From Strigamia acuminata (lineage: Eukaryota; Arthropoda; Chilopoda; Geophilomorpha; Linotaeniidae): DNA of 64,000 nt. Below, one piece after another: positions 13,996 through 56,861 of this stretch (position 1 is its first letter; each line of letters opens with the position of its first letter). Made by a program: the position numbers and the translations under genes. The stretch is taken from assembly GCA_949358305.1 (NCBI GenBank), contig OX442324.1, forward strand, positions 8,219,601-8,283,600, given 5' to 3'. Under the pieces are notes generated by a model that worked only from the letters and a program-made list of their open reading frames with translations, did no database searches and was not told where the DNA came from.

Positions 13996-14066
13996 TCTCC
14001 CCCCCCAAGAAAAAGGTAGGTCCAAGGGGCCACACACAACACCGACGGGGACACGCAAGTCGAGGC

Positions 14067-14339
14067 TGTTGAAAGTATGGATTGATGAACAAATTCCAGG
14101 CCAAAAGTGAGTAAAAGAACAAGATTTAATCATCTCATGCAAGCATGGAGAAAAATCAACAACAAGAGAACAAGTAATAACAACAGTTGCTAAGCAGCTA
14201 GAGAAAACAATCTCAACTACTGTAACCCAATTGATACATCAATGTATACATAATAAATAATTACAAATCAAACAAATCAAGCATGTATAACATTAATTAA
14301 CAATTGCATATCGCAAATCTCGGAGAACAAAAGCCAACA
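14067..14339 (-). repeat. 3' LTR of copia element C
   Basis: This 273-bp LTR starts TGTTGAAAG and ends GCCAACA in plus-strand reading. It appears identical to 20195-20467. Confidence 0.96.
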
Positions 14340-14397
14340 GTAGCCCCCCATTCTCCGAGACATGACTCAATCATATAACAAAAGTAAATGCGAAAAC

Positions 14398-18879: not shown

Positions 18880-20194
18880 GACGATATAAGTGAGCGGTTC
18901 TGCGAAAAGTTTGGTCGAGGTGACAGGAGAACGCGCGGTATCGTTGTTCGAGGCGGAAAACCAGAATTGGACTATTCAGGTTGCTAGCCAACCCAACTAA
19001 ACAGTGGCCGTTTAGGAGTTGTCGGGAAATAATGGCCCTATGGCCCCCGGATACTCCACTGTCGGGCACGGCAAATTAATACAACGGTCAAAGTGCAATG
19101 ACCGAGGCAAAGATTTGTATCTGTTAGGGCAATTAAATCCACTAACAAATACAAATCCAGGATCCTACACCAGGTCCCTACCAAAAACCTTAATCTTATA
19201 CAAAGTTTCACGAAACTTAATATTTAACAAAGTTTCATGAAAAAAAATGAGGAGAATCTGGTAGAATCTCTTGGAAAACTCGATCAAAACTTCTTGAAAA
19301 TCTCTGCAAATTGGTTGGCAAACTTCTGCCACTTCGTGTCTGATTTCACACGGAAATCCACGCAAAAATCGACGTAACCTGACGAAATCTGCAAAAATAA
19401 ACACGAAAAAGTACATGAGAATTCAATTCAATGTTTAAAATCTTCAAAGATCTTCGAAAATCGACGAAAATCTTGAAAAAAACAGTCACAAAATGCGTCT
19501 GCTGCTCTCGTGTTCGTAATCGACGTAACGGACACAAAAAAAATTTGAAACAAATCCCAAAGTACTCACAACACTTGTAGAAACAAGTGGAATAATCCAG
19601 TAATCCCTGGCACAACACAGTATCGACGAAAAAGCACTAAATTCGATGAAAAGCACGTTAAAATTCGGCGAGAAGATCCTCGTGAAGCGCACGGGTATAT
19701 GGCGCAAAAACAACGAAAATCGGCCCGAAAAACGTGGAAAACATGATGAAAAGTACTCACAATCGTGTGTATAACACGTACACTGCTAAACACAAGCAGA
19801 TACTGGATGGCACAGTCAAAAACTCGATGAAACACGCGAAAATCGTCGGCGAAAATCACTCGGAATTTGGTGCATCGCGATCGGGCGAATCTGCGGCGAT
19901 CATCGGCGAAAATTCACGGAAATCCATCAGGAAAAGTACCCACGATCCTTCTACAAGCTCAGGACAGTACCCACGAAAATTTGCAGCGTTCAAATCCGTT
20001 GCAAATTGCAGAAAAAGCATCAAAATCGTCGGGTGAGCAGGCATGAAGAAACGAGGTCGGCCATTTTGCCAGGAGCGAGTAATCGATCAGCAGGATAAGA
20101 TGAACGAAAATTCATGGAATTTTGACAAAAACTTGGCCAAAATTCAACATGAACAACTCACAGTGATGGAATGAACTCTAATCCTCTGCTACCA
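18880..20194 (-). other. 5' leader of copia C
   Basis: This untranslated leader is about 1.3 kb. It is rich in short GAAAATC/CGAAAATC words. It ends with the initiator tRNA-Met primer site beside the 5' LTR and carries the 18-base word shared with element B (18945-18962), 66 bases before the gag start. I see no convincing coding frame. Confidence 0.75.
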
Positions 20195-20467
20195 TGTTGA
20201 AAGTATGGATTGATGAACAAATTCCAGGCCAAAAGTGAGTAAAAGAACAAGATTTAATCATCTCATGCAAGCATGGAGAAAAATCAACAACAAGAGAACA
20301 AGTAATAACAACAGTTGCTAAGCAGCTAGAGAAAACAATCTCAACTACTGTAACCCAATTGATACATCAATGTATACATAATAAATAATTACAAATCAAA
20401 CAAATCAAGCATGTATAACATTAATTAACAATTGCATATCGCAAATCTCGGAGAACAAAAGCCAACA
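20195..20467 (-). repeat. 5' LTR of copia element C
   Basis: This 273-bp LTR pairs with 14067-14339 and is followed by the target duplication GAGGC at 20468-20472. Confidence 0.96.
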
Positions 20468-20472
20468 GAGGC

Positions 20473-21109: not shown

Positions 21110-22453
21110 TCACGGCTCCGGCTTGTCGTTGGACGGTGGTTGCGGCTGAGAGGGGTCTTGCGGCTCCTCTTCAGACTCGGTTGCAACCGCTGCGGGTCCT
21201 GCTGGGGCTGGCGAAGTTCTCGCCGCCTCCAGTATAGACCGTATCGACGGTGGGGGAGGCATTAGCTGCCTGCCCTCCGCCTCCGCCGCTCCTGCTGTAG
21301 TCGATGGTGACTGGGGGGGTAGCTGGGGCACCTCCTCCGTCGCCGCCGTTTTGACTGGGGCCAAGGCACGTCGCGCCGCCGCTTCCTCTCTCGACGCCGC
21401 CACGGATGCAGCGCTGCGGGACTTCTTCCCCTTTCCCTTCTGTTTGCGAGCATTGTGCGTCGCCTCGATCGGATCCCACACCTTGGGGCTGAACTTGTCG
21501 GGATAGGCCTTCCGCCTGTGCACGCGTTTCATCAGCACCTCCTCGTACGTAGGCGGGGGTGGTGGCGAGTGCGTCGCCAGTTCCGGTGGCATCACGATAG
21601 GTGCGGGCTCGTGGGACGCCGGTACAAACATCCGCTGGAAACCATGATTGTTGGTCAGCCTAGGGAGTCCGGCTAGTGTCTCCACGTAGCCCCGGCAGAT
21701 TGATGCGTCGAAATCCGCGTAGTCCGCCCCCACCGTCTGTTCCAATGTCCAAGTCTGGACCACGAACGGGGACGGTAGGTGGAGGTACCACGCGTTCATA
21801 GCAGTACCGACCGACCATGCGACGATGCGGACCGTCTCATACCACCGTATCCTCCGTGCCGCGGCCGTCGCAACAGGTGGAACGTTGAGGACGATCCACA
21901 TCCTCTGTCGGATCAGGGCGATAGCCCTAGTCGTCCTGATGTCACTCCCGGCCGCGTCCACAAAGCGCAGGTGAAGTTCCCTCCACCGCTTCGCTTCGGC
22001 GACCCAGAGTGCCACCGTCTGAGCGTGCGCATGCTCGAGGCGCGGGATCGCTTTCAAAACAAGCGCTGTGCAGACCACCGGAGCACCAGGCGGTAAGTCG
22101 GCGACCTCAAGCGGGATCTGGCCCTCGACGGGTTCCAAAAACACCGCTCCTTCCTGTTGTCCAGAGGGGCATGGTTCCTGGGAAGGTCCTTCGCCTCCTC
22201 CGGCAGCTCCTAAACCCACGTCGTCCATCCCGGGGTCGCCGCACCGCAACAGTTGTGCCTCGAGGGACAAACCCTCCAGCACCGACAATTGAAGCACATC
22301 GTCCTCCGAAACAGACAACTCCATCATCTCGTCATCTGGCGCTGGTAGTTGGGATTGCACCGTCGGCAGCTCGGCGTAAGCGCCGTCCTGCCTCTGGGAA
22401 ACAATACACTCCTCCCGCGGAGTAGATGGTTCCGACCGTCCCGCGAGATTCAT
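21110..22453 (-). CDS. Element F ORF2: unknown protein with PPTY motif (447 aa from its ATG)
   Basis: I do not recognise this protein family. The frame is open for 447 codons from the ATG at 22451-22453, and that ATG overlaps the ORF1 stop as ATGA. The N-terminal third is acidic and Pro/Gly-rich. The middle is a compact Trp/Arg-rich domain of about 150 residues (RWYETVRIVAWSVGTAMNAWY region). A proline run ending in PPTY (21545-21556), followed by EEV, matches the PPxY late-domain or WW-ligand pattern used by retroviral Gag. The rest is a basic Lys/Arg/Ala-rich segment and a disordered Pro/Ser tail. I see no transmembrane segment or signal peptide, so it is not a classical Env. It sits 3' of pol, where env normally lies. 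Confidence 0.7.
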   Translation of the reverse strand: MNLAGRSEPSTPREECIVSQRQDGAYAELPTVQSQLPAPDDEMMELSVSEDDVLQLSVLEGLSLEAQLLRCGDPGMDDVGLGAAGGGEGPSQEPCPSGQQEGAVFLEPVEGQIPLEVADLPPGAPVVCTALVLKAIPRLEHAHAQTVALWVAEAKRWRELHLRFVDAAGSDIRTTRAIALIRQRMWIVLNVPPVATAAARRIRWYETVRIVAWSVGTAMNAWYLHLPSPFVVQTWTLEQTVGADYADFDASICRGYVETLAGLPRLTNNHGFQRMFVPASHEPAPIVMPPELATHSPPPPPTYEEVLMKRVHRRKAYPDKFSPKVWDPIEATHNARKQKGKGKKSRSAASVAASREEAAARRALAPVKTAATEEVPQLPPQSPSTTAGAAEAEGRQLMPPPPSIRSILEAARTSPAPAGPAAVATESEEEPQDPSQPQPPSNDKPEP

Positions 22454-23231
22454 GAGGCTACCCCAAGTGCCGCCACGGGGATTCCAAGCGCGAGTGACGC
22501 GCAAGCGATCGCCTGCTCACTACAACCGGCTTCCTCCGTGGGCATCTCGACCACCTGTTCGCCAGACACTCCGGGAAGGTCCAGAGCAAGGGACACTGCT
22601 GGTTCAGCCTGTACCTCGTCTCTGACCACTTCCAACTGCTGTGTGGGTTCCGGCGTACCGTCCGCCACGGGGAGGGCGACAACCATCGGAACGGCCACAA
22701 CATCCGGTTCGCTGGTACCGGATCCACATGATCGCTGTGCGACCGGCAGTACGGCAGCAGCTTCAGCCTCGGCCACCGCTTGCCTCGCCGCCTCGGCGGA
22801 CCGTGCCTTCCTCGCATTGTCCTTGATACGACGACGCAGCAGCTTCCCTGCGGACTCGATCTGAACCGCAGTTGCGCGCGGGTAGGACGCCCGCCACTCT
22901 GCCAACGAGGTCTCCAGCCGCACGGTCATTTCTTCCGTCCACTTCGACGGCGCTGGTTTTTGCTTCTGGCGCTTCGGGTTCGGCTGGGCTGGGGCCTCTG
23001 CCGAAGCCGCTCGCCCCGCCTGAACCCTTGGTGCCGAAGGCGCAGAACCCGATGGGCCAGGCTGCCCGTCCCGTGCTCTGACAGCTTCCACCGTCAAACC
23101 ACGTGGTAGTAGGGCATGCCCGCGTCGCAACAGCTCCTGCGTCCGCCTCTCCCACGAGTCGACGCTCATCCACGACACCATCGAACGGGCGCGACTCCGG
23201 TCGCCGCCCGGTCGTTGTGAGTGGCGCGCAT
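22450..23231 (-). CDS. Element F ORF1, 3' part: unknown basic/Ala-rich protein
   Basis: This frame ends at 22450-22452 and is open to the right edge of F sequence at the D insertion. It continues in the same frame at 29987-30146 once D and one target copy are set aside. An internal ATG (23179-23181) would give 243 residues. The protein has a Pro/Ala/Arg-rich segment, a KRQKQK basic cluster, and a Trp/Glu/Arg-rich helical region (KWTEEMTVRLETSLAEW to AEAEAAAVL) that could form a coiled coil. The acidic C-terminus is rich in Val/Glu. I do not recognise it. Translation of ORF2 could be coupled to its termination. Confidence 0.65.
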
Positions 23232-23696
23232 TGTTAGAAAAATGCCCAACTGTTTGATCTTATCGGTTGCATGTTTCCGGTTAAATGCAACGTGTGTGTC
23301 ATTGCAATTCTGTATTTGTGTTACATTGGTTGATATTGACTTTTAAACCCTTATTCCTGTGCTAAGTGCCGCAACCAATGTACTTATTAGCAATGACATA
23401 CCGATATGTCGTCTGCTCGAATATGAGCACTTATCTTTTAGTTTCTCATGGCTTTTGTTTACATTATCGATTGTTTATGCCGTTGTTTTGCCTTTGTTAT
23501 GTAAAGAATGAATCTTTGCTTGTTAACAATGATTCGTTCTTGTTTAAGCTTTGTAGCCTCGAATGAGGTGCGCTTTTATGTTTCTCTCCTCTCATCACGA
23601 TGAATAAAGATGGCGGTCGCATGATGCGAGTTCCCGCACCGTTTAAATCGAGTGTCAGCTCCTTTTCGTTGATGTCCGGCGCCTACAAACCTATCA
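23232..23696 (+). repeat. 5' LTR of copia element D
   Basis: This 465-bp LTR runs from TGTTAGAAAA to CCTATCA. It differs from 29517-29981 near 23329, 23598 and 23674. The primer site TGGTAGCAGAGG (23699-23710) follows after two bases. Confidence 0.95.
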
Positions 23697-24783
23697 TATG
23701 GTAGCAGAGGGTGGTTGACGACGCGGCCAACCGTTTGTGATACGTTTGCGGCAAGTTTCGTGAAGAAACGGACATCACGGATCCTCGCCAGTATTGTCGC
23801 AGAGACGTATCGTCGGATTCGAGGTGTTTGTAAAGCTGACAACGTGTGCGGACGTTTGCGGAGGCATTTCTGGATCGAACAGTGTAAGAATTGTCGAAAT
23901 TCTGTGCGAAATAAGCACATTGCTCGATATAAAGAAGATTTTCTTCTGCGGGCGCCATTTTGTTTTGGTTTCATCGCGACGAGCCGTGAAGCCAGCGGAG
24001 AATCGTGTGTACGGATCGACACACGCTCTCATCGTGATTCAACGCGAGAATACGTCGAATCGACGTCGTTTTTGGATCGTTTCGTCGTGGGAAAGCACGG
24101 AAGTCATCGTACGAATCGAATTCTTCGACGGCGGCCATTTTCGTCAAAGTAGGCGAAATACGACGTGTTTATTTCCATTTGAGGAGAGAAGTCCTGTTAG
24201 CGGGTTAAACATACGCGCAGGCATTTGACCAGAAGACCAGTTAGCGGGTTAAACATACGCGCTGGCATTTTCCCGAGGTTTTGTGCACGGAGCACATCCT
24301 ACGAAGGTGCGGACGAGCACGTTAAGTCGACGTGCATCGATTTCACGACGTGGGATCAACGAGGGAATTTTTGCGACGCAAACCAACCCGCAAAACAACG
24401 GATTTTCACCTTGCCAACTATTATTTAGTTTTAAGTTGTCGAAATTCCTTGTTAATAAGCTTAAGGTTTTGTTCGGGGGTCTTGTAGTATCCTTTCCACC
24501 CTTTACGCAGTCGCGTAGTGGAATTGTATTTTTGCGTAGGCTTTCTCTGGCCACCGAGTGTCCCGCGGTCCTAGGAGTCCGGTCGGAACTCGGGAGATAC
24601 TACGTAAAGTTTTTCGTCTCATTTAGTGAGATTTGTCCAAGGGAGACTGTATAATTTTCGCCTAAACCTTTTGGGGGTTTACGCCACTTGTAAAAGTGTA
24701 AAAAGTGTGTTTTGTGCTTCATTTGGTGTGTGCGACGATTTATTTTGTGAAAAAGTGCAATCTCCGCAACGAATCGACTAGAT
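23697..24783 (+). other. 5' leader of copia D with a 44-bp tandem duplication
   Basis: This leader of 1,087 bases separates the 5' LTR from gag. It holds the tRNA-Met primer site at its start. At 24196-24272 there is a tandem duplication with a 44-base period that repeats the word TTAGCGGGTTAAACATACGC. Short frames exist, but none resembles a known protein. Confidence 0.75.
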
Positions 24784-27700
24784 ATGGCGTCAGAGGAAAA
24801 ATACGACGATTATAAGTCGATTAAAAAACTGAATGGGACGAATTATGCCCAATGGGCGATTGGTGTAAAATTATTGTTATCCCAGCAAGGCGTGTGGGAC
24901 CACGTGACGGGCGACGAGACTGCGCCCGCCGCAACCGCCACAGCGAAGGAGAAACGGGATTTCAAAGTGCGTGAGAAGCGGGCGTGGTCCACGATATGCC
25001 TGAGTTGCGAAGAAGCGCAACAGCTCGTGGCCGTTGCCAAGGATACCTCTAAGGGGGCGTGGGAAGCGATCCGAGATGCTTACCAGCCCACCACACGCGC
25101 CCGGAAAGGCAGATTGAGGCGCGAGTTCCTGCAAATGCATCTAATGGACAATGAGGAGATGATGTGTTTTCTGGCCCGTGTCGACAGAAAAGTCGCAGAA
25201 CTCGCGAACGTCAAGGTTATACCGACGGATGAGGAAATCGCATTTCAATATATGGATTTTCTGCCAACAACTTATGAGACAATCAAGCAGATAATGTACC
25301 ACTGGGATGATTTGGACTTCACCACTGCAAAAGTGAAAGAGCGATTATTAGGAGAGTATAATCGTTTATTTGAAGCTTCAGACTCCTATGGTATGCGTAC
25401 ACAGGATTCCATCGATAATGCAGGTGCATTCTTTGGAAAAGGGCGATTCCAACGCGGAAAAGGCGGAAATCAGCCATTTACACCTCGAACTTGTTTTTCC
25501 TGTGGCGGCACTGGTCACTTCGCGAGAGAATGCCCGTCACCGCCCAAACAACAAGCGAATATGCAAAGCCAACGAGGTGGCACCTCTGCACAGCTAGCAA
25601 AAAGCACTGCACGAGGACGTGGCCGTGGTGGAAAGACCAAAAAGGCCAATTTGGGACAAGTTGACATCTTTGATGAGCCATTGACAATGTTTTCGGCGGC
25701 AGTTCATCAAACTGAAGAGGAAGTCACCTTGTCGCCACCATTGTCTTTAATGTCGCATTGCGACTTTGATCCGCACTGGTACATAGATACCGGTGCGACA
25801 GATCACTTTTCATTTAATAGAAGTTGGTTCGTGACCTTCAAGCCACTGTCCGGCTATAGTGTCCAGCAGGGGGAAGGAAAGTCTAAAATCGAGGGCATTG
25901 GCAACGTGTTGATCACATCTTGTTATGCAGGCAGATGTAGGGAAATCACACTGCAAAATGTTTATTTTGCGCCAAATTTTAAGAAGAATCTCTTATCGCT
26001 GGGCCGGACAGATGAAGCTGGTTTCACAACTTTTATCAAAAATGGAAAGTTGACCATGTTTAAAGACCGAATTAGTGAGCCTTTTCTTGTTGCAGATAGA
26101 ACAAATGATCGGATGTACAAAGTTAACTGCAAACTAGAGGCTAATATTGTGAACACAGCTGCACCTTCTGCGCAACAGAGTGCAGCGGTGGGTGAAAATT
26201 CGGTCAAAAATGTTGTAAAAAGTGAAAGTGTCATTAATCCTTTACTAAAAACAGTAGATTTTAAGGCAGCATTACTAAACACATTGAGTGGCGCAGTGCA
26301 GACTGCAGCGAAGCAGCAAGTGAGCGTAAATGCGCTAGTAAATGCGTCAAATCTTAAGAAAAGCGATTTAAATGATACTAACGGGCAAAATGTTTCGAAT
26401 GGGGGAAAAATCGAAAAGATCAAAGTGAAACCGCAGCCAATGGACATTTGGCACTCCAGAATGGGCCATTTTAATGCAAGTGGGATTGCAAAAATGGAAG
26501 TTTCGCCTGACATTTTCGGAGTTAAACTCTCCGACAAAGAACTTTCGCCTTGCGACGCGTGTTCGAAGGCAAAGAGCACTAGGGCAACCTTTTCCCCAAT
26601 CCCAGAAATTTCTACAAAGGGAATTTTGGAAGTAATCCACATGGATCTGTGGGGCCCTCAACCTTTTAAATCTCTTGGTGGGGCCAGCTATTACTTGATA
26701 ATCGTGGACGATTACTCACGTTTTATGTGGGTGGAAATTATTAAAAACAAGGGGGATGCATTTGAGCGTTTCAAACGATGGCAAACTGAAGTTGAGCGCA
26801 GCACTGGGAAAAAGGTCAAATGCATCAAGACAGACAACGGCGGGGAGTTTGTGTCGAAAAAGTGGGATGACTATGCAGCTTCTATTGGGCTTAAGTGCAT
26901 CCAAACAAACCCCTACTCCCCAGAAATGAATTCCGTGGCCGAAAGAGCAAACAGAACAATTGTTGGGGGAATTAGGGCCATGCTCTTCGAAAACAATTTT
27001 CCAAAGGGTTTGTGGGCAGAATTGGCCGTGACAGTTGTCTATCTTAAAAATAGATTCCCACACGCAAGCTTAAGTGGGAAAACCCCTTATAACTTGTTTT
27101 ATAACAAGAAAATGTCGTTGAGACATTTAAGATGTATCGGTTCTAAAGTTTTCGTGCACATTCCTTCGCAAACAAGGAGAAGCAAGTTGGAAGAAAGGGC
27201 ATGGCCTGGGGCCCTAGTCGGTTACGCGATAAAGACGCGGGGGTATCGAGTTTGGGACCCCAAATCCAACCAAGTGATTGCTTCAAAACATGTGAAGATT
27301 AATGAGAATGTCTTTTGGCACGAGTCGGTGCAACTAAGTGAAATTCCATCCGAACCTAATTATATGGGAAATTTGAATTATGAAGATTCAGATGAGGAAG
27401 AAATTCCAGTGGCACAAGGGGGAATTCCAGCCCCAATACCACAGAAAGTGGCCCCTGTTCAGCAACAGGTTCCCCCTATCATACAGCAGTTGTTTCAGGC
27501 CCCGAAACATGCGGTTCCGAATCCCCAATTAGTCCAACAGGCGGTCGAGCCTGAAATTGTGGAAGAAATCGCTCAAGCTGTTGGTGGGATTGAAGAAGAG
27601 GAGGAGCAACAAGTGGAAGTTCGGCTTCCAAATCCGACCCTCACACCTCCACCAGTTAGGAGGAATCCACCACGCGGTGCTAAGTTAAAGGGGGATATCA

Positions 27701-29499
27701 TAAGAAAACGTATGACCGCTCCCCAGGATTTAAAAATTTTGGACATGACACAGTGGCAACGGAGGGAAACCGTTAGACAAAGTGGTGAAACTGCCGGGCA
27801 GGTAGATGTGATCTACATAACACCACTTGGCGATAGAATCCGCAGTCGGATTGATGTTGTACGATGGTGCAAAGAAGAAGACTATCAGTACGATGGGGGT
27901 TGTTTCGACTTTAAGGCAACAGATGAGACCGTTGGGTTTGCCGGCCATGCATTCGTTGAACCGGATACTTTCGAAGAAGCTATGTCCAATCCCAATAAAT
28001 CCGACTGGCAGGATGCCATGGATGACGAGATTAATATCTTTAATGACAGAAAAGTTTACGAGGAAGTTGACAAAACCGAAGGGATGAATTTACTGGGAAC
28101 AAAATGGATTTATAAAATCAAGCGTGACTACACTGGGGCAATCAAACGCTGGAGAGCACGTTTAGTTGCGCAAGGTTTTGGGCAGAAAGAAAGAGTTGAC
28201 TTCACTGAGATATTTTCACCAGTGGTCAACTTTGTTCTCGTACTGATATTCTTTTGTTCTCTTGTGGTTCTACAAGGCTGGCGAGATACACATCTCGACA
28301 TCAAGTCTGCGTACTTGTACGGAGACCTTGATGTGCCACAATACATCAATATCCCGAAGGGCTTTCGGACCAAAGAGAACCAACACAAGTGTTGGCGATT
28401 GGTCAAATCCTTGTACGGACTTCACCAGTCCGGAAGGATGTGGTATTTCAAGCTCCACGAACGATTATTAGAAATAGGATTTACTCCAGTCTTAGGATTG
28501 AATTGCGTATATAGTTACGGCTCAGATGCCGTCCTTTTGTTTTACGTCGACGATATTGTTTTGTTCAGTCGTGATGCTTTCGTTGAACAATGTATCATCG
28601 AGTGGGTCCAAGAGAGCTTTGAAATAGTCAACCTTGGACCAGTAACTCTACTATTAGGGATTCATTTTGAGAGGAAAAATGGGGACATTTTAGTACATCA
28701 AAAGAGTTATATTGCGAAATTAGTCGAGAAATATGACATTGACCCGTGCCATAAGATTAAAATCCCAGTCACAGTTGGTACCATGATACAGAAGGTACAA
28801 CCGGGTGAACAAGTAAACTCGACGTTCCCATACAGGTCCCTAGTAGGGAGTTTACTATTTATCGCGAACAGAACGCGCCCAGATATCCTTTTCAGCGTCA
28901 TTGTGTTATCTCAATACAATGAGACCCACTCTAACAGACATGTTAAAATGCTAGTACAAGTGTTGAGATATCTGGCGAATACCCCCAACTATGTTATCAA
29001 CCTGGCAAATTGTAAGAACAACAATTTAACGGTTTACACCGACGCATCTTTTGCTTTGGACCAAGACAGTAGGAGAAGCTTTGGTGGTCACATAGTTTAT
29101 TTAGGAGGGGTTCCGATTTCATGGAATTGTCGAAAACAATCCATGACTTCACTGAGTATCATGGAAAGCGAGTTTCTCGCAGTTGTCGATGGCGTGAGAG
29201 AAGTGATATGGCTAGAACGTTTATACGAGGCCGATATCATCTTGTGTTTTGGAAGAAGCGTTCCTTGTGTTTACGCCGATAGCATGCCGGCAATCAACTA
29301 TGCGAAAAACAAGATCGAAAACCGTGCAAATAAACATATAGATGTTAAATTGCACTTTCTCCGCGATTGGTTTGAAAGAAGGGTATTTAACATCAAACAT
29401 GTGCCTGGCGAATTGAACATCGCGGATTTGATGACAAAGTGGTTGCCGCGCCCCAGATTATGTCAGCTCTGTGAGCATATTTTTGTTGTAGTCAAATAG
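24784..29499 (+). CDS. Copia D Gag-Pol polyprotein (1571 aa)
   Basis: This is one open copia frame starting MASEEKYDDYKSI. The UBN2-type Gag is followed by a CCHC knuckle (CFSC...GHF...C) at residue 237. The protease motif YIDTGATDHF has its Asp at residue 335. The integrase shows WHSRMGHF...CDAC, HMDLWGPQ, KTDNGGEF and SVAERANR. The RT box YVDD is at residue 1254. The RNase H contains YTDASFALD, IMESEF and ENRANKHIDVKLHF. No catalytic residue is missing and no stop or frameshift is seen. An acidic Glu/Gln/Pro-rich linker joins integrase to RT. The product would be processed to Gag particles and enzymes for cytoplasmic reverse transcription and nuclear integration. Confidence 0.96.
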   Translation: MASEEKYDDYKSIKKLNGTNYAQWAIGVKLLLSQQGVWDHVTGDETAPAATATAKEKRDFKVREKRAWSTICLSCEEAQQLVAVAKDTSKGAWEAIRDAYQPTTRARKGRLRREFLQMHLMDNEEMMCFLARVDRKVAELANVKVIPTDEEIAFQYMDFLPTTYETIKQIMYHWDDLDFTTAKVKERLLGEYNRLFEASDSYGMRTQDSIDNAGAFFGKGRFQRGKGGNQPFTPRTCFSCGGTGHFARECPSPPKQQANMQSQRGGTSAQLAKSTARGRGRGGKTKKANLGQVDIFDEPLTMFSAAVHQTEEEVTLSPPLSLMSHCDFDPHWYIDTGATDHFSFNRSWFVTFKPLSGYSVQQGEGKSKIEGIGNVLITSCYAGRCREITLQNVYFAPNFKKNLLSLGRTDEAGFTTFIKNGKLTMFKDRISEPFLVADRTNDRMYKVNCKLEANIVNTAAPSAQQSAAVGENSVKNVVKSESVINPLLKTVDFKAALLNTLSGAVQTAAKQQVSVNALVNASNLKKSDLNDTNGQNVSNGGKIEKIKVKPQPMDIWHSRMGHFNASGIAKMEVSPDIFGVKLSDKELSPCDACSKAKSTRATFSPIPEISTKGILEVIHMDLWGPQPFKSLGGASYYLIIVDDYSRFMWVEIIKNKGDAFERFKRWQTEVERSTGKKVKCIKTDNGGEFVSKKWDDYAASIGLKCIQTNPYSPEMNSVAERANRTIVGGIRAMLFENNFPKGLWAELAVTVVYLKNRFPHASLSGKTPYNLFYNKKMSLRHLRCIGSKVFVHIPSQTRRSKLEERAWPGALVGYAIKTRGYRVWDPKSNQVIASKHVKINENVFWHESVQLSEIPSEPNYMGNLNYEDSDEEEIPVAQGGIPAPIPQKVAPVQQQVPPIIQQLFQAPKHAVPNPQLVQQAVEPEIVEEIAQAVGGIEEEEEQQVEVRLPNPTLTPPPVRRNPPRGAKLKGDIIRKRMTAPQDLKILDMTQWQRRETVRQSGETAGQVDVIYITPLGDRIRSRIDVVRWCKEEDYQYDGGCFDFKATDETVGFAGHAFVEPDTFEEAMSNPNKSDWQDAMDDEINIFNDRKVYEEVDKTEGMNLLGTKWIYKIKRDYTGAIKRWRARLVAQGFGQKERVDFTEIFSPVVNFVLVLIFFCSLVVLQGWRDTHLDIKSAYLYGDLDVPQYINIPKGFRTKENQHKCWRLVKSLYGLHQSGRMWYFKLHERLLEIGFTPVLGLNCVYSYGSDAVLLFYVDDIVLFSRDAFVEQCIIEWVQESFEIVNLGPVTLLLGIHFERKNGDILVHQKSYIAKLVEKYDIDPCHKIKIPVTVGTMIQKVQPGEQVNSTFPYRSLVGSLLFIANRTRPDILFSVIVLSQYNETHSNRHVKMLVQVLRYLANTPNYVINLANCKNNNLTVYTDASFALDQDSRRSFGGHIVYLGGVPISWNCRKQSMTSLSIMESEFLAVVDGVREVIWLERLYEADIILCFGRSVPCVYADSMPAINYAKNKIENRANKHIDVKLHFLRDWFERRVFNIKHVPGELNIADLMTKWLPRPRLCQLCEHIFVVVK

Positions 29500-29516
29500 T
29501 TGCGCAAAGGGGGATT

Positions 29517-29981
29517 TGTTAGAAAAATGCCCAACTGTTTGATCTTATCGGTTGCATGTTTCCGGTTAATTGCAACGTGTGTGTCATTGCAATTCTGTAT
29601 TTGTGTTACATTGGTTGATATTGACTTTTAAACCCTTATTCCTGTGCTAAGTGCCGCAACCAATGTACTTATTAGCAATGACATACCGATATGTCGTCTG
29701 CTCGAATATGAGCACTTATCTTTTAGTTTCTCATGGCTTTTGTTTACATTATCGATTGTTTATGCCGTTGTTTTGCCTTTGTTATGTAAAGAATGAATCT
29801 TTGCTTGTTAACAATGATTCGTTCTTGTTTAAGCTTTGTAGCCTCGAATGAGGTGCGCTTTTATGTTTCTCTCCTCTCATCACAATGAATAAAGATGGCG
29901 GTCGCATGATGCGAGTTCCCGCACCGTTTAAATCGAGTGTCAGCTCCTTTTCGTTGATATCCGGCGCCTACAAACCTATCA
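29517..29981 (+). repeat. 3' LTR of copia element D
   Basis: This 465-bp LTR starts directly after the purine tract at 29507-29514 and is followed by the CGCAT target duplication. Confidence 0.95.
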
Positions 29982-29986
29982 CGCAT

Positions 29987-30146
29987 ACCACCTCTGCCTG
30001 GGAATGGTGAAGTGCACCAATCCCATGCCGAGGCAGTTGCCGCACGGTGACTCCCAACCGCCCGCCGATAGTTCCCATCGCTCGCCCGAGCAAACAGGGC
30101 AGATGTGCCACTGTTCGCCTCCATCTCCGCCTCCGTTTCCCGAATT
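29987..30146 (-). CDS. Element F ORF1, 5' part with CxxC-x15-CxxC zinc ribbon
   Basis: This is the upstream part of the ORF1 frame, cut off by element D. On the minus strand the open frame begins at an apparent splice acceptor (intron ending in a T-rich tract and TTAG at 30147-30150), with an in-frame TAG just inside the intron. It encodes a Gly-rich start, then CPVC (30090-30101) and, after 15 residues, CGNC (30033-30044), a pattern that could bind one zinc ion. The combined length, 160 plus 782 bases, is an exact multiple of three (314 codons including the stop). This supports a single frame across the D target site. No ATG precedes the zinc ribbon, so a start codon would have to come from a spliced upstream exon. 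Confidence 0.55.
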
Positions 30147-32501
30147 CTAAATAATAAAATAATAAAAGATAAAATTAATAAATTATACAAAATGAAAGGG
30201 GAAAAAATTGGGTTGAGAGCATGATGTAAGGGTTATGAATTAGGATTCCGGCACGAGGGGGCGACAAACTCAACCTCCCACGCGAGTACATGATCACGTG
30301 CAAACACATGACGTCAGTGGATGTTACACAATCGACGGAGACATCGAGCTGGCAGAAGCCATTTTTCGGTGCTCCGGTGATATAAGCCGAAATAATTTCC
30401 TGGATTCGTTAAACCGAACCGGGATGATATAGAACTTTGACCAAAGCGTGGTGCCTGGTCTAAGAAATGATGGTTGTAAGAGCTTCACACACGACAAGGC
30501 AAGGGATGGTGAAGGCAACGCAAACCGCAACCAACATGGCGGACCGTTCTGCACAACGGCCCGGCATGTCGATGAAGTCTGGCGCCTGAATCAGTACCCA
30601 ATCCAGTCGCAGAAAACACGAACAAACCATCGATTGTGACAAAAAGGATGTCTCGAAAAGAAATACGCGAACGAGCGAAATGGTGGTACACCTTTTCTGC
30701 CTGAACGCGAGTGAAAAGAGAAAAGAAATAAAGTAATTTTTAATCTCACCGAACAAAAAGAAAGAAAAATAAATTTAGTTGCGCCGGCTGAGAAAGAAAC
30801 TCGAGTTCAGGGCAAAATAAACAAAGGAGGAGTTGAAGACTAAGGAAAAAAGAACGAAAAACTCCAAACGGAAGTGGACTTTGATTTCTTCGAGTCGCGT
30901 CGCGGTGGCGAGTGATTCGGGAAGCGAACTTCTCGGCTCCTCTTACCGCGGCGACAACCCCTCACCGCCCGCTATTGTTCTCCCAGATTTGCGGTCTCAG
31001 ATCGTGCCGCTGGCCACTCAAGTGACCAGCGTACAGGTCATTGACCTCAATTAGGGACAATAGGAACGAGGGATGCACGAATTCCGAGGGGTTAGGCGTG
31101 GGTCACGGTGTAACCTTTGCCAGCTGACTCGCGAATTCGACGCCGATACCCACCCATTTCAGAAAGAAAAACCGGGGACACGGCGAATGGAGGCAAAAAA
31201 CAAAAAAAAAGATACGTAATTAAAAAGAAATTAAAAAAATTAAAAAAAAAATTAAACGGAGCAAAAAAAAAGAAAAACTAATAACAAGAACTTTTCACAG
31301 AAACCTCGGGAAAAAGAAGAAAGAGAAGCGAAAAAAAGTGATAGAAAATTCAAGACGGTAGACGGATGGCAAACCGAAACCAATCGTATCAGGTATCACG
31401 AAGCGCTTCGTGAGAGAAAACGCCGAAATTTCAGGTTTTCTTCACACAAAATACTTCTTAAAATGTTTTCCGAACACTAAATGGTCGAAACCACAAGTGT
31501 TTCAGTGAATCAACTCGATCGCGGCGGTCAAAATGACTTTGATCCGCCTGCGTTCCTAGCGAGGAGCGGCGGCCGAAGCTGCCTGCTTGAGCGCTAAGTT
31601 GCACGTAATAACGGGGCTGGGGTACGAAAGAAAGCAATCGGTCACGGGTTTCATCGAGAAAAAGGGCCACAGTAAATGATGCAAAAAGGGAATAAATTTG
31701 TGTCTTACCCTCATATTGCAACTCAAAAACTTTATCCCCGAACACGAACACAAGCAAAAGTCAGCTGATGCTGAATGGTTGCTCTCTGGAAAACAAGTGA
31801 CACACGGGGACTATGTCCAGAAACAAGAAACCTCGAGTCTAAACAGAGAACAATCCTCGACCCGTGACCTGTGATTGGGTCCCACGACACCCTCACCCCT
31901 CTAATTGGTGCAATAACTAATTCCCAATCTAAAGAGACAATCTTTCTCAGAAAGCGCAGGAAAAACACCACGAAACAATATTATTTTATTGCCACGACAA
32001 TTTTCCGAATTTTTAGCGAAAAACTCCCACGATCCCCGGGCAGAGAAATAAAACCTGCTTAAAAATCGCGGCTGCGGTGCTGAGACCGTCGCCATGGTTA
32101 CGCTCCTCCGCGAGATTTCGTGACGTCACATGAACGCCACGATTCTCATCGGTTGAGACCGCAACATGACCGCTGAAACTGGCCACGGAAAGCAGGTAAT
32201 TAAACAAACTTCTCCGACCAATTTCAGTGACTTAATCAATCAATTCAACAGTGCTATCGGTCTAGTGACCAACACTGATCGATCGGCGACCATCGAGATG
32301 AATCACGGGCCTGCAAATCGATTTTTCCAACTTCACCGAGCAACAAGTGACTGCTACAAGAACGGGTGAGTTCGATAATAAAAAAAAATAAAAAACACTC
32401 ATTCCAATAAGCCATCGTTACAGGGTAACTTACGGGTTCAATTCTGTGTTTGTCGGTGTGACAATGACGAGGATTCGCCGTGTCTACGCCTGACGAACGT
32501 T
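30147..32501 (-). other. Interval between F pol and ORF1, possible intron
   Basis: No convincing protein is seen on either strand over these 2.35 kb. The stretch is A-rich in plus-strand reading (31190-31350), with a GC-rich island at 30890-31150. On the minus strand a good donor (GTAAGT, first base 32433) lies about 70 bases after the pol stop, and the acceptor described for ORF1 ends at 30147. The interval could be spliced out of a subgenomic RNA. Short frames at 31458-31757 and 30833-31054 have no recognisable features. Confidence 0.45.
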
Positions 32502-35111
32502 CTACATTTTAAATCCAGCCGAAACAAGGAATTTGTAAGTTCCTGGCCAGAAAAAAATGCGTCGTAGCCTTTTCACCATGTCGGCCGCGTTATCCTGCAT
32601 GTAGCGAGGGTGCAATCGAATGACGTCGAGGCAACGGTCAGCTAGCGGTGCAGGCATCAGGATTTTTATGTCCAAGCCTTGCTCCGCTCTGGTTAGTGAC
32701 GATTCGGGTGAGAACGGGGTATTGATACACAATTCTCCGCACTCGCCGAACGTATAATCGGACATGTATTGCGCCATGGATGGTGGGATTTGGGCCAGAA
32801 GACTGTCGTCATCTCGGTCCTCGTCTAACCATCTCATGATCGCGCCACAGTCGGCATCTGCTCGCTGGATCCGCCTAATCTCATCGTAAGACATGATCGC
32901 ACCAGTGAGGCTTTCTGAAACGAGAGTGTGGGCAAGCGTGGAAGCAGCTTTTTCTTCGCGTGAGGCCGCCAATGTCGTCTCCTCGTCATCTAGGCCTACA
33001 CGAAAAAGAGCAACTGCGATCCGATCGTCCACATCTCTCCTGAATGTAAACGAGAATCTCACCTGTTGGAGTTGCATTGCCCACCGCACCAGGCGACCTG
33101 ACGTGTTGACTGAGTGTAGTAACCAAAACAACGCCACGCAACCTGTTTCGATTTCGAATTTCGAATACGCGATGAAAGAACGAAAGGAAGCGACTGCCTG
33201 CAGAACTGCCAGACAATCGAGTTCCGGCGGGCTTAACGCTGTCTCGGCGCCTTGCAGCGCACGACTCGCGTAAGCAACGGGTCGTTTGACCCCCAGATGA
33301 TCGATCTGCGTGAGGACTGCACCGAGCCCAACCAAACTTGCGGCAGCATGAATGACGAAAGTCTTGTTGAAATCAGGCATCGGCTGCACGATACCACGCG
33401 AAAGATGATCCTTGAAAAATTCGAATACTCCCTGACACTCGTCGGACCAATTCCATTCCGCACCCACTGTGAGTAGGTCATCCAGCGGGTTCGACAGATG
33501 TTCCAGTCCCTCGATCGGCGGTGTGTCTCCTCCAAACATGCCGAGGAAACGTCGCAGCTGGGCGACATTCGCCGGTCGCGGGTAGTCCACGATCGCCTGA
33601 ACACGGCGTTCGTACGGTCGAAAACCTGCGGGAGTCATAGAATAGCCAAGAAAGTCCCAAGAAGTAGATATCACACAAGATCCAGACGGGCTAGCGGTCA
33701 AGCAATACTTGCTCAGCCTGCTCAGCACGTCGGACAGGTGTGTCAGGTGTTCCTCAAAAGTTTTGCTGAACACCACAATCGAGTCCAGGTAGGGCAACGC
33801 CCACTTAAACTTCGATTCGCCGAGTACCTTTCCCATCAGTCGCTGGAACGCCACAGGGGTACTTAACAATCCGTAGGGCAATTTCACGAACTGAAAGGTA
33901 CCTTGAGGTGTGTAAAACGCCGTCTTAGGTCTGTCCTTGGGCGTAATCCTTACCTGAAAGCAGCCCATGGCCAGATCCAAAGTAGAGAAGAACACACTCC
34001 CTTCTAAACAGGCCAAAATCATGGGAATAGACGGTACTGGGTACGTGTCTCTCTCCGTGACCGAATTGAGCTGTCTAAAATCGATGCAAGCGTCAAAGGT
34101 TCCGTCAGGTAATACACTTATCACCGGCTGGTTCCTATAATCACTTACACCTTTCTCTATTTCACCCTTTTTCAGCGCGCACCTCACCAAACGGCGAAGA
34201 GCTTTCGCTTCAGCAGGGGATGTTGGTTTGATATCGCACGAGAAGGGTGGCGCATTACCCGTGGGGATCCGAAGTTCCACCGTCGGATGACAGCCTCTTA
34301 TCTCGCTGAAGGTGTGGCTGAACTCGTCGAGCACACGAGCCAATCTCATCTTCCGCATATCTTCTATTTTGCAGTCTTCCAACAAATCTAATTGTTTGGA
34401 TGATAGTGACAGTTCGGCCGTGTCGACGCCGTGTTCCAGCGTGACCCTTGCCCACTTGTCAACATCTGCACCACTTTCGTCTAGCTGTCTAGGCCGAGGG
34501 GCGAAAGGAAACGTCATCCCTGGATTATCGGCTTGATACCAATCGTTCCGAGAAATGCGAATTACAATGCCAGATTCCCTCAACCAACTACACCCCAAAA
34601 GGATGAAGTCAGAAGAAGAAGGTAACACTGCAAACCGTAACCAATCTTCTCCCGTCCGCCAGCTGACGTACAATTTCACCGTCCCCAAGGGACTGGTTAC
34701 TCTATCGCCCGTCATAACCCTAACAAAATCATCACAGGGTTCAATCGAGGCTGTCAGTCCGTATTTTTCGGCCGCGGCACTACTCATATACTGCCCTGAA
34801 GCAGCGGTATCCATAAGTGCCACCGCTTCACGGTCGGAAAAACGAATGTCGACGAACGGGAGAGGGAAATCTCTGCCCAGTCCGGCGACACTCACTGTAT
34901 CCCAAACCGCTCCGACGGCTAAGCCTACGAAACAGACTTGGTCGGGCGGTGAGCCGTCTGCTACGACGCCTTCATCCGCCTCAATCAATTCTAGCGGCTG
35001 GGGTGGTGAGATCCGGTCGTAGAGTTCGGCGGGCTGAACCACACCGTTCTCCGCAACCAGGCCTACCTCCTCCGGCTCGCTTTCAACGTCCGAATCGTCC
35101 GATGCAGCGGC
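32502..35111 (-). CDS. Element F degenerate Gypsy-type Pol (protease, RT, RNase H, integrase stub)
   Basis: This frame is open for about 870 codons and aligns by motif to Ty3/gypsy Pol. The protease motif reads LMDTAAS (Asp at 34809-34811), with Ala for Gly. The RT fingers keep DFRQLN and the first catalytic Asp (STLDLAMG, 33975-33977). The catalytic box is YLDSIVVFS (33780-33791) instead of YLDD, and the conserved NAP and YYRRF regions are replaced. In RNase H, TDAS reads HAAAS (33335-33350) and TDH reads ETGC (33138-33149). The frame ends in an integrase finger stub (FFWPGTYKF) that lacks the second His and the CxxC. The catalytic core is missing. The upstream in-frame stop is TGA at 35112-35114; the first ATG-independent start is not clear. 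Confidence 0.8.
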   Translation of the reverse strand, partial: AAASDDSDVESEPEEVGLVAENGVVQPAELYDRISPPQPLELIEADEGVVADGSPPDQVCFVGLAVGAVWDTVSVAGLGRDFPLPFVDIRFSDREAVALMDTAASGQYMSSAAAEKYGLTASIEPCDDFVRVMTGDRVTSPLGTVKLYVSWRTGEDWLRFAVLPSSSDFILLGCSWLRESGIVIRISRNDWYQADNPGMTFPFAPRPRQLDESGADVDKWARVTLEHGVDTAELSLSSKQLDLLEDCKIEDMRKMRLARVLDEFSHTFSEIRGCHPTVELRIPTGNAPPFSCDIKPTSPAEAKALRRLVRCALKKGEIEKGVSDYRNQPVISVLPDGTFDACIDFRQLNSVTERDTYPVPSIPMILACLEGSVFFSTLDLAMGCFQVRITPKDRPKTAFYTPQGTFQFVKLPYGLLSTPVAFQRLMGKVLGESKFKWALPYLDSIVVFSKTFEEHLTHLSDVLSRLSKYCLTASPSGSCVISTSWDFLGYSMTPAGFRPYERRVQAIVDYPRPANVAQLRRFLGMFGGDTPPIEGLEHLSNPLDDLLTVGAEWNWSDECQGVFEFFKDHLSRGIVQPMPDFNKTFVIHAAASLVGLGAVLTQIDHLGVKRPVAYASRALQGAETALSPPELDCLAVLQAVASFRSFIAYSKFEIETGCVALFWLLHSVNTSGRLVRWAMQLQQVRFSFTFRRDVDDRIAVALFRVGLDDEETTLAASREEKAASTLAHTLVSESLTGAIMSYDEIRRIQRADADCGAIMRWLDEDRDDDSLLAQIPPSMAQYMSDYTFGECGELCINTPFSPESSLTRAEQGLDIKILMPAPLADRCLDVIRLHPRYMQDNAADMVKRLRRIFFWPGTYKFLVSAGFKM

Positions 35112-35441
35112 TCAAGCTATCGTCGACCTGCTGGACAATTCCATGATACGTTTACTGAAATCCAATTGCTGCGACACCGCGGATCTTGCCCAAGCTTCCG
35201 CCATGTCGCTGGCCTCATTTCGCGCACGAACAGCTGCTTTACGCGCCTGTTCTGCAGCAAAATTTGACCAAATTGCTTCGCCATGTGCAGCGGCGGCGTC
35301 AAGCGCTGCCAGCTGCTTCTCGCGTTAAAATAACCTAATGAGTTCCATGACGTCGTCCTGCGTCTTAATATCGCATGGGTCGACGTCGCAAAGAACAGCT
35401 AGTTCTCTGGCCCAAGCCGAATCAAGATCCTTGCTTGCCAT
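35112..35441 (-). pseudogene. Element F mini-Gag with in-frame TAA and TGA
   Basis: An ATG at 35439-35441 opens 38 codons (MASKDLDSAWARELAVLCDV...) and ends at TAA 35325-35327. The same frame then continues for 70 codons of an Ala/Arg/Glu-rich, coiled-coil-like segment to TGA 35112-35114, and beyond that directly into pol. All three parts therefore share one frame, separated by two stop codons. There is no capsid major-homology region and no CCHC knuckle. It may be a remnant Gag, or a short leader peptide with readthrough. Confidence 0.5.
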
Positions 35442-38400
35442 AAGATGCTATTTCTTTGCAACCAGTGGTAACCAAGTGTGTGCAGTCAAGACCACGCACA
35501 GGCAAGGAGTGAGAAGGAATCCAAGGACACTTTCACTTCCCACAGCCAAACCAAAGTCAGGGGTACCTTGACCAATTACAGGCGCCTACAACTAGGTCGA
35601 CCATAATTGTTTTACAAAAGATCTCAGCATCCCTTCCAAAGGAATGTCTGACCACTGGCCATGTGTTGGACCTTCGAGCGCTTTCCAGTGCTTCAAGGGC
35701 CCTTGATTCTATTTTAGGCTAATTGGCAATCGAACATCTGGTGAAGACCAAAGGCGCGCACCGGGGTGCCGTCCCGTTCTTTCAACAGAGTCCGTGCCCT
35801 TTATGCTAAAACTGATTAAACAGAGGAGCGGCGAGTCAATGGTCGAAACCCTGACCTCGTCATCAACCTGTTACTGCAGTCTGTGTACCTTCAAAAATAA
35901 AATATAATAAATTACAATGGAAGTATTTTTATTGAAAACAATAAAACATTAAGTTTTGGTTCATCTCTCCGCCCCAAAAAATAAAATTAGCGGTTATACT
36001 TTGGTTTTTTCTAATCCACGCCCCAAAATAAAAAATTAGCGAACACCTTTCTGGTACTTATCCACGCCCCAAAAGATAGAAAATGGCGAACACCTTTCCG
36101 GCACTTATCCACGCCCCAGAAGATAGAAATGGGCGACTGGAAGTTCTCTGACACTCCCAAACTAACAAACCAATGCATGATTCGTCTTTCCCTTCGTGTT
36201 CTAAATTATTCACGCCAGAACCAAGTAGAAAAAACTGCGTATATCGATTTTTCGTGGCATTTTCTCATCGCGCCCCACAGCTTCGATGCTAAGGTCGTAC
36301 GTTTTCCTTTGCACTGGTGTACACGTCTACCACCAGTTTTAACCTCTGCTGAAAACGCTAAAATCGCGTGTTTCAGGATTCCTCCGATATTGCCTGCTCC
36401 TGCACCGAAATCACACCCAAAACACCATCAAGATCGCGATAATCCTGATGAGGCAAAAAATTGTGACTCAGTCGCCTCAGACTAAGAGTGAAGGGAAATT
36501 GGCGAACCGAGCCTGAGTCAGATTGGAGAATATTGCAACTGAACACGGTCCAGCGCCAGGGAAAGTTAGGTCCAATCCCCGGGAGCCTCACTCCTTTCCA
36601 ACCCGGATATGAAATTAGAGTAGAAATAGGATAAAAGAAGAGAACAAGAAAAATGTGGTGTGTTTCACAAAATTGGGAAAAGGGATCCACACACAGCACA
36701 TTGAAAAAAAATAAAAGTTTGAAAGATGTTGGGCTGGATTCACAGTCTTCGTTTGAAGCTGTTAGCCACCCAATTCGTATTTGCAAGCATTCCACGCGCG
36801 GTTTGAAAGCAAACACCGTTAGGCCCGACACTCCAGCAGTCCCCTGCAAGAGCCGCCCTCCCTGCTGTCCGAGACCCAATTTCGACAGTAAGGCAGTGAA
36901 ATTGACAAAAATGTGCCATAAGTGGCCACAAAAACACAAAAAAAGCCAAAATTACGCTAAACTGCTTCCACCAGTGCCCGGGACAGGGTTGGAAACCCAG
37001 TCTTCGTGTGCTCTCCTTAAGTACATGTGCCTGTAATTCAAAAGATTAATCAAACCGCTGAAACCAGGAATGTACCTCTGGCCAGTAATGAACAGCGCTT
37101 CCCTAAATATACCGCATTAGTTTATTGCTGTCCGGGCGAAGCACAGGGCTGAACTGGGATACACCGCACCCAGCAGCATGCCTGCCCACCACAACAACAC
37201 CACAAACACATTTCCCGCCAAAAAACACACTCGGAAAAAGCACCAAATCGCCCGACCCTGAGGAAGAAATAAAAGAACTTAATCTACCAAATGTTAGTGT
37301 GGTGTCGACCCTCTAAGACACTCATTACGTCAGCGTAACCTCAGGAATGTCATGAGTAACACATTGTTGGTTTGTGAAAACCTAACCTCTACACACCCCA
37401 CTTTCAAATTGTGTTTGAAATGATGAACCAGATCTAATTCAACACTCCAAACCACAACATCTGAGCACCTACAAATGGTTTCTCACCTCTACAGGTTGCA
37501 CACCAAGAAATGAAAAATCATAAAACAAAATAAGGGGGTGTCCAACTTGTGTGCTGGTTGACCCTTGTCCCCCCAGGCTAATTAAAGGAACAAACGAGGT
37601 CAGACTCAAGCCAAGCCAAACACACAAAGAAAAACACCAAACAAAACAAAATAAAATTGGAAATTAGACTAATGTGCTGACTGGACATTCCTTCATGAGA
37701 TGAATGTAAAAAGACAACTCAATCCAATCCTAACCAGACCAAACACAAAAGAAAAATAAACCAAAAAAAAATAATATAAAATTGCACAAATTAACCCAAG
37801 ACTTGAGCATTACCCAGCCCAAACAAGAGAAAAAATGTGGCAGAAGAAAAACAAATGTTTCCCAACCCGGCACAAAAACTAAACAACAGCAAAAATGAGG
37901 TTTTAAAACAAGATCACTGCAGTTCAATTAAGTACAAGGGGTGGAGAACACCAAAGAAGATACACAATGGTGTCTATTCCTGTAGCTGCCTAAGGGAAAG
38001 AGCAAGACCCCCCAGGCTAATTAGAGGAACAAAACATCAAAGTGCTTTGGTCAGTTGCAGTGTGTCTGAAAATAAATTTCAGAGCCCCAACCACAACAGC
38101 ACTGAGAAAAATACAATTCCAAGACCTTCAAATGAAAAAGTGCCCAGCCCTCACAACTAAGCCTCTCACGCGACTCAAAGTGACTGCCAAAAACACCCTT
38201 CAAATTCCTCAGTCTCAAAGAAAAACATTTAACCCAAAATCCAAAAAATAAGAAAATGAAAAACAATACAATTGTCTCCCGCCAAAAAAAAATAAAGCAA
38301 AAATGTACCAACACTCTGAACAATGAATAAACAATCTGCAACAAAAAATTGAAGCAAACGGCAACCACAATGAAACAAAGGGTTCGCACACAAAGCAAAA

Positions 38401-38458
38401 CAAAATGGCGGGAAAAAAAAAAATTTTACAAGTTCAAATCCAGGACAGGGCCCTCAAT
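35442..38458 (-). other. 5' leader of element F
   Basis: This 3-kb region lies between the 5' LTR and the mini-Gag. It is A-rich in plus-strand reading and has no recognisable protein. It contains a tandem repeat at 35968-36140 and two dispersed copies of a CCCCCCAGGCTAATTA-like word (about 37570 and 38008). The bases next to the LTR (38430-38458) do not begin with TGG on the minus strand, so no standard primer site is evident. Confidence 0.55.
35968..36140. repeat. Tandem repeat, four units of 45-47 bp, in F leader
   Basis: Four units each start with TCC(A)CGCCCCAAAA, at about 35968, 36015, 36061 and 36108. They continue with ATAGAAAATGGCGAACACC in the better conserved copies. Confidence 0.75.
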
Positions 38459-39051
38459 TGTGACTGCTATGGTCTCTCCCAGTGTAGTCAGGGGACTGAG
38501 AACACTTGGTAGGGACGCATACTTCACGTAAATGACGGAGACTTCCCACAATATTGGTTGGTTGGCCTTTATTGCGTTGTCTAGGGGTATGGGGAAACCC
38601 GTCACCCGCTGCAGTGGTGCCACGAAGGCACACCGCACCGGCAACCGACCCGCCGCGCATCGGGTGGGAACCCAATGCGTGGCGTGGTCGGTTCGACTTA
38701 ACATTCGTGTCGTACTTACCTACGACCCACGCGTCCACTCATGGAGGCTGTACAACGGTGGGAGCCGTCATACTGAGTATCATCGTGGTGAATGGTGAGG
38801 AGTACAGAGTCAAACCGGGACACTGCTTGTCCCTCCCAGATGAACACCTTCTCCTCTCGGGGAGCTGCTGCAGGCACGTCCTTCTCAGGCCGTGTCCAAC
38901 ACTCAACTCTCTCACAACACTCCCTCCTCACCACACCACTCCACTCCCTCCTCCCCGGGCTAGGTCAACTACCCACGTAGGGGTTGACCTTTGGGGCCGC
39001 ACGGTGGTGTGTGGCAGTGCCGCAGGTCACCTAGGTGGCCTGGCGGTCACA
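38459..39051 (-). repeat. 5' LTR of element F
   Basis: This 593-bp LTR pairs with 13403-13995 and is followed on the right by TTGG, the other half of the 4-bp target duplication. The F promoter should lie here, reading leftwards. Confidence 0.9.
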
Positions 39052-39055
39052 TTGG

Positions 39056-56850: not shown

Positions 56851-56861
56851 ATACTACTTCC

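Follow-up and report, generated by a model that had tools for sequence, protein, structure and literature searches.

A multi-copy Ty3/Gypsy lineage of Strigamia acuminata keeps a Pol-derived protein under purifying selection after the loss of active-site residues

Relation to described retrotransposon systems

TRIM and LARD elements are defined by their lack of coding capacity. BARE-2 is reportedly a Gag-defective parasite that leads a 'life without GAG' using cis sequences common to it and an autonomous relative; to our knowledge, it has not been described as having a selected dead pol. Here we analyze element F, a long terminal repeat (LTR) retrotransposon in a 64,000-nucleotide stretch of the genome of the centipede Strigamia acuminata (contig OX442324.1, positions 8,219,601 to 8,283,600; hereafter the window, or C12:8219601-8283600 in the contig:positions labels used for loci). 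F lies on the minus strand, bounded by a 5' LTR (38459..39052) and a 3' LTR (13403..13996). Unlike TRIM and LARD elements it has coding capacity, comprising an open reading frame (ORF1) for a Gag-like stub joined to a catalytically degraded Pol, and a further frame, ORF3.

Excerpts of the study of Athila in Arabidopsis (Marco and Marin, 2008, PMC2410132) describe old non-autonomous LTR families whose ORFs are under purifying selection and that are mobilised in trans. F resembles the families in those excerpts in its selected ORFs, apparent recombination with other families, and a third ORF in the env position. However, the non-autonomous Athila families are described there as keeping gag, or gag and env, without pol, whereas F keeps a dead pol and a Gag-like stub. 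Athila already provides examples of non-autonomous LTR families in which gag or env ORFs are selected; F differs in retaining a catalytically dead Pol. TR-GAG, as presented in part of its description (PMC8704663), is likewise an LTR element with an incomplete protein set that moves in trans, but it has a single Gag-encoding ORF, whereas F has a dead Pol and ORF3. RTL1/PEG11 is also Gypsy-derived and evolutionarily kept, with RT, RNase H and integrase sites that are probably inactivated; in the excerpted account (PMC2799525), however, it is a single domesticated mammalian gene without LTR mobility, and F is no single fixed copy without LTRs. The best structural match is the reverse transcriptase (RT) of Ty3, an asymmetric homodimer in which one subunit is unused for polymerisation, although both of its subunits, unlike the F protein, are one active protein (PMC3851607; PMC5371799).

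Among the papers listed by our searches of open-licence full texts, none described a mobile lineage in many copies whose dead Pol is under selection, and none on Morgane-type or pseudoenzyme elements matched F. If the model developed below is true, F would provide a natural experiment in which what RT does as a structure can be told apart from what it does as a catalyst, an instance of pseudoenzyme evolution within a parasite of a parasite, and a testable helper-parasite pair within a single genome.

The Pol-derived frame of F and its sister family F2

The minus-strand interval 32502..35111 holds 869 open codons, in line with the approximately 870 reported by an earlier sequence-only reading. 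This frame matches the Pfam models RVT_1, RT_RNaseH and RT_RNaseH_2 over their cut-offs and gag-asp_proteas slightly under its cut-off; a Pfam profile search found no Gag or zinc-knuckle domain in it. The order protease, RT, RNase H and the homology to Gypsy pol place F in Ty3/Gypsy. The frame reads YLDS, HAAAS and ETGC in place of YLDD, TDAS and TDH, as previously noted, and its protease motif is DTAASG. The RT fold (33612..34403, ends approximate) keeps the motif A Asp but carries the change from YLDD to YLDS and the fingers substitutions K334L and R340D. Codon 444 (33780..33782) is TCG for Ser, whereas the related families G and H described below have GAC or GAT for Asp, bearing out the claim that this change takes more than one base. 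In the RNase H-like domain (33003..33374, ends approximate), three invariant Asp residues are lost (A590, G657, V700). The protease-like domain (34533..34859, approximate ends from model residues 85-193) shows a change of Gly to Ala with the Asp kept, and the corresponding motif in the sister family F2 is DSGASG in six and DSAASG in two of the eight copies covering the site. Given the retained Asp and the mostly DSG motif of F2, we do not accept the protease as dead, in correction of the statement that the catalytic residues are gone. Catalytic positions that persist are the Asp of the protease, two of the RT triad Asp, and the position of the RNase H Glu, where an acidic residue remains. Four of nine acidic and four of eleven basic invariant residues are retained (counts that include one artefact position, residue 1), together with the core. 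Of the roles that the sequence-only reading proposed for the dead Pol (structural protein, RNA binding or inhibitor), binding of nucleic acid in the RT cleft is made less likely by the loss of basic invariant residues. F thus lacks the intact YxDD, RNase H Asp residues and integrase core of an autonomous Ty3/Gypsy element, and instead of a complete Gag with a nucleocapsid zinc knuckle it has only an N-terminal stub ahead of the protease.

This stub becomes visible in the family version of ORF1 (32535..35441), which begins 330 nt upstream of the open interval, at 35441, and encodes 968 aa ending FFWPGT-TAG. ORF1 is 968 aa in all four F copies and 969 aa in all three F2 copies measured, each ending FFWPGT. 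Its N-terminal part (35112..35441) is approximately 30% identical to the Gag N-terminus of family G (40/135 identical; E 4e-11, from a very small search space). In the window copy, this frame is interrupted by premature stops at 35325-35327 and 35112-35114 and reads TAC at codon 859 where the family has TAG. The reported absence of stops and frameshifts hence holds for the open interval but not for the family frame upstream, nor for ORF3, which is broken; the window copy has decayed in both ORFs.

The genome comprises 237,517,015 bases in 157 contigs; among at least 120 listed hits to its COX1, the nearest is Mecistocephalus marmoratus (84%), a geophilomorph centipede. A search of the genome with the window frame scored 52 of 4093 candidates and gave 54 matches, so that locus counts are lower bounds. 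There are at least 22 F loci at 93-100% protein identity and at least 12 F2 loci at 78-81%; a further F2-like locus is represented by two pieces. We fetched 33 copies, 21 of F and 12 of F2; outside this set are an F locus at C95:293617 (score equal to that of C1:57463814), the F2-like C3:10940567/10941170 and a G locus at C1:49507020, and an intermediate degenerate copy with the YLDS region deleted (L025) was excluded from the F and F2 counts. Motif C is YLDS in 21/21 F and 11/12 F2 copies and YLNS in the remaining F2 copy, such that its first Asp is kept in 32 of the 33. Codon 444 is TCG in every fetched copy. The Asp is replaced by Ala at position 590 in 32/32 copies covering it and by Gly at position 657 in 33/33, and the fingers Lys 334 is Leu in 31/31 copies covering it. 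F and F2 also have in common ETGC, the losses in RNase H and a stop directly following FFWPGT. The shared codons and shared stop place the active-site losses before the F-F2 split, and on this comparison the common ancestor of F and F2 was already dead. No F or F2 copy of the 33 has YLDD, and none of the 32 covering the first RNase H Asp retains it. This agrees with the expectation of the sequence-only reading that other copies would share the losses, and we reject a chance dead copy.

The Pol-derived protein of F and F2 has been under purifying selection since the two families split. Between F and F2, counting by the method of Nei and Gojobori (NG86) gave a nonsynonymous rate (dN) of 0.127 and a synonymous rate (dS) of 0.798, i.e., a ratio of 0.160 (252 pairs); the ratios within families were 0.256 for F, 0.177 for F2 and 0.138 for G. 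Pairwise maximum likelihood on four F-F2 pairs gave dN/dS (omega) values of 0.198-0.211, with log-likelihood gains of 108.5-118.8 over omega 1; single pairs within F and within F2 gave 0.284 and 0.332, respectively. A single omega fitted over the 26 of 33 copies with >780 codons was 0.301 (lnL -10717.1 versus -10913.2 at omega 1). The ratio below 1 anticipated for this frame was thus obtained by all three methods (0.16-0.30). By domain, likelihood estimates for one F-F2 pair were 0.213 (protease), 0.256 (linker), 0.086 (RT), 0.169 (connection), 0.289 (RNase H) and 0.31 (tail), compared to 0.082 (RT), 0.061 (RNase H) and 0.191 (tail) for one G pair; the RT domain is hence similarly constrained in F-F2 and in the live sister G, as judged from one pair each. 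In the excerpts considered here, the Athila authors caution that past selection may leave an imprint on ORFs (PMC2410132). This objection does not apply here, because the divergence compared comes after the shared losses.

A likely helper family and the possible role of the F protein

The same search identified two families with intact catalytic motifs. Family G (12 fetched loci, approximately 48% identity) has FLDD in 12/12, HTDAS in 11/12 and ETDH in 12/12 loci, and family H (two loci, approximately 42%) has YLDD, HTDAS and ETDH. The G copy read has an integrase and two overlapping frames, one for pol and one for a gag with a CCHC-like motif. The LTRs of G are young; G LTR pairs lie approximately 14.2 kb apart by their outer ends (e.g., C1:49574312-49588475), and 40/42 G LTR matches are 95-100% identical to the query LTR; no G LTR was found in L055, and this locus was not used. 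The LTR and leader of F align with those of G over 3.1 kb at 81%, and with those of F2 at 77-81% in three pieces. For the LTR, identity is 79% between F and G and 86% between F and F2. The non-coding leader (35949..38458, minus strand) is common to F, F2 and G at 83-84% pairwise, gaps excluded, and contains near its 3' end a block of approximately 300 nt that is 94-100% identical among them. The 16 nt that follow the LTR (38443-38458, ATTGAGGGCCCTGTCC; first bases not TGG) are identical in F, F2 and G (window, L049 and L050 compared). F therefore has an autonomous partner with a matching LTR and leader, as expected of an element mobilised in trans, and the predicted donor, a sister family with intact motifs and matching LTR, exists in G, whose integrase is also intact. 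These matches make G the likely helper of F.

Sites at which two of the three families agree against the third are clustered along these regions. With one sequence per family, the observed maximum was reached by 0/1000 permutations for the leader and 1/1000 for the LTR, and an adjacent-site test gave 0/2000 for both. This clustering shows that the LTR and leader are mosaics across the three families and indicates recombination among the lineages, either via template switching in shared particles or via gene conversion. A predicted RNA structure of the leader is without covariation support (two-sided change at 0/78 pairs among three sequences).

On balance, we slightly favor a model in which F and its sister F2 form a non-autonomous Ty3/Gypsy lineage of approximately 12.5 kb elements that is moved by the enzymes of autonomous G, with the dead Pol as a non-catalytic subunit. 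F RNA would be packaged into G particles via the shared leader, and G enzymes would copy and integrate it; a mosaic LTR and leader would be expected because F, F2 and G RNAs would recombine. Less certainly, the 968-aa F protein (Gag-like stub, protease-like domain, dead RT fold and dead RNase H) would be a pseudoenzyme, and may co-assemble with G Gag-Pol as a non-catalytic subunit favoring the RNA that encoded it. Element-level selection would then keep the fold, not the chemistry. A more specific proposal, on which we are tentative and place a little less than even weight, is that this selfish element has converted its polymerase into a selected pseudo-polymerase. Selection on the element would have retained the non-catalytic RT fold at least over the F-F2 divergence (dS ~0.8), and the protein would join particles made by a live relative, steering or regulating them to the benefit of F RNA. 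For the role of the protein, a non-catalytic subunit of helper particles is our best guess from these comparisons, with an inhibitor as the main rival.

Several points weigh against the subunit model. In the Ty3 RT dimer, as described in excerpts of the structural work (PMC5371799), one subunit serves as the polymerase and the other as RNase H; F is without both sets of active residues, and a G-F RT dimer might therefore be inactive, which would favor inhibition. Two Arg residues at the Ty3 interface in the same excerpts (PMC5371799) align by eye to non-Arg residues in F and G alike, a comparison that does not discriminate between the two families. The RNase H-like domain and tail are looser in the F-F2 pair than in the G pair, and the Gag-like stub is weakly constrained (omega 0.47-0.60; log-likelihood gain 1.6-3.8), which counts against the model because the stub is expected to mediate assembly. 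Finally, gene conversion between genomic copies could be an alternative source of the mosaic.

Ty1 p22 acts as a trans-dominant inhibitor through Gag. The dead Pol might likewise be a trans-dominant inhibitor, depressing G activity from within G particles or RT dimers, with selection acting through less competition or less host damage. The loss of most catalytic residues with retention of the fold fits this explanation, the Gag-like stub could direct the F protein to particles, and Ty3 RT, in the excerpted account, requires both subunits (PMC5371799). However, a strong inhibitor would hurt the spread of F itself, given its dependence on G, and F has reached at least 22 loci, with 40/41 listed LTR matches across the genome at 98-100% identity to the window LTR. 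We therefore regard inhibition as unlikely, though it is the strongest of the competing explanations.

That the helper is an unsampled family rather than G is improbable. The scored candidates were the best 52 of 4093, H is intact as well, and the LTR comparison covered G, not H; against this, G matches F in the LTR, the next 16 nt and the leader. We give even less credence to a protein that is not dead but has a non-canonical active site. The motif A Asp and, in 32/33 copies, the first motif C Asp are kept, and the F2 protease motif is mostly DSGASG, but the protein has jointly lost three RNase H Asp, the second motif C Asp, the Lys and Arg of the fingers, and the integrase core.

The remaining three explanations have very little probability, and we reject each. 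A neutral relic, with a frame open by chance or through the memory of past selection, would be in keeping with the decay of single copies: stops occur within codons 1-857 in 5/21 F and 3/12 F2 copies, several copies are frameshifted, and the window copy has its two upstream stops. However, the F-F2 divergence postdates the shared losses, yet dN/dS is ~0.2, and neutral simulation at 0.2 substitutions per site produced a mean of 14.1 stops, with 0/500 frames still open. Constraint on the RNA (packaging, structure) rather than the protein would fit the strong conservation of the leader across F, F2 and G, but differences between F and F2 in the ORF fall mainly at third positions (110, 86 and 295 at codon positions 1, 2 and 3 over 858 codons), with dS of 0.8, and over the whole ORF these values contradict a constraint at the RNA level. 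Domestication as a host gene has a parallel in RTL1/PEG11, in which a dead Gypsy RT forms part of a host protein according to part of its description (PMC2799525), but is rejected for a family that is multi-copy, LTR-flanked and recent, although one fixed copy could still be co-opted.

Structure of F, ORF3 and neighboring elements

ORF3 is represented in the window copy by an N-terminal piece (22450..23181) and a C-terminal piece carrying PPPPPTYEEV (21110..22504), both on the minus strand. In the three copies read with an intact frame, ORF3 is open for 772-774 aa, or 762-764 residues counted from a conserved EQW/DQW motif (start putative), and its F-F2 omega is 0.127-0.163. A PPxY motif occurs in ORF3 of F, F2 and G. 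G has an ORF3 relative near its pols that is 28-39% identical, with several frames of 664 aa. The G copy read (L056, C1:49574900-49577900) contains PPPTYSQAV and one interrupting stop, and its CPIC and CQNC motifs suggest a zinc-binding N-terminus. Searches with the 464-aa ORF3 piece gave matches to none of 7992 scored candidates at E 0.001, and ORF3 had no match in phages. With an E limit of 1, Pfam gave no match for ORF3 of F and F2 or for residues 1-418 of the G frame; for the 243-aa window piece, the sole match was DUF2859 (E 0.084), under the cut-off. A tandem array at C1:39555636-39564781 contains three open ORF3 copies (773-aa frames, 87%) with a spacing of exactly 3,889 bases.

The LTRs of F run from TG to CA (593 bp plus one flanking A) and differ at two positions over 594 columns, matching the roughly two differences counted previously. 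A 4-bp CCAA lies outside each LTR, forming a target-site duplication. Two nested Copia elements split the window copy and extend it to 25.6 kb, one at 23231..29981 on the plus strand (LTRs 466 bp, 99.4%) and one at 14067..20468 on the minus strand (LTRs 274 bp, 100%). Other F LTR pairs lie approximately 12.5 kb apart by their outer ends (e.g., C1:35663132-35675602 and C1:45189478-45201987). The non-coding region 3' of ORF1 (29982..32534, minus strand) is 91-94% identical among long F matches and 71-73% identical to F2 (tested over 30200-32500). The F copies at C43:81455-93951 (12.5 kb) and C63:71746-91267 (19.5 kb) have equal scores at several F segments, and probably represent a single insertion that occurs in duplicate on unplaced scaffolds, with an additional insert in one of the two.

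Elsewhere in the window, three Copia polyproteins (1263-6329, 14398-18879 and 24784-29499, the latter two within the nested elements) contain, between their integrase and RT, a methyl-CpG-binding (MBD) domain. A further Gypsy pol with RT, RNase H, H2C2 and integrase domains is located at 60405-63986 on the minus strand, and a repeat of 270-290 bp occurs in direct and inverted copies, 83-84% alike, at 56583-57800.
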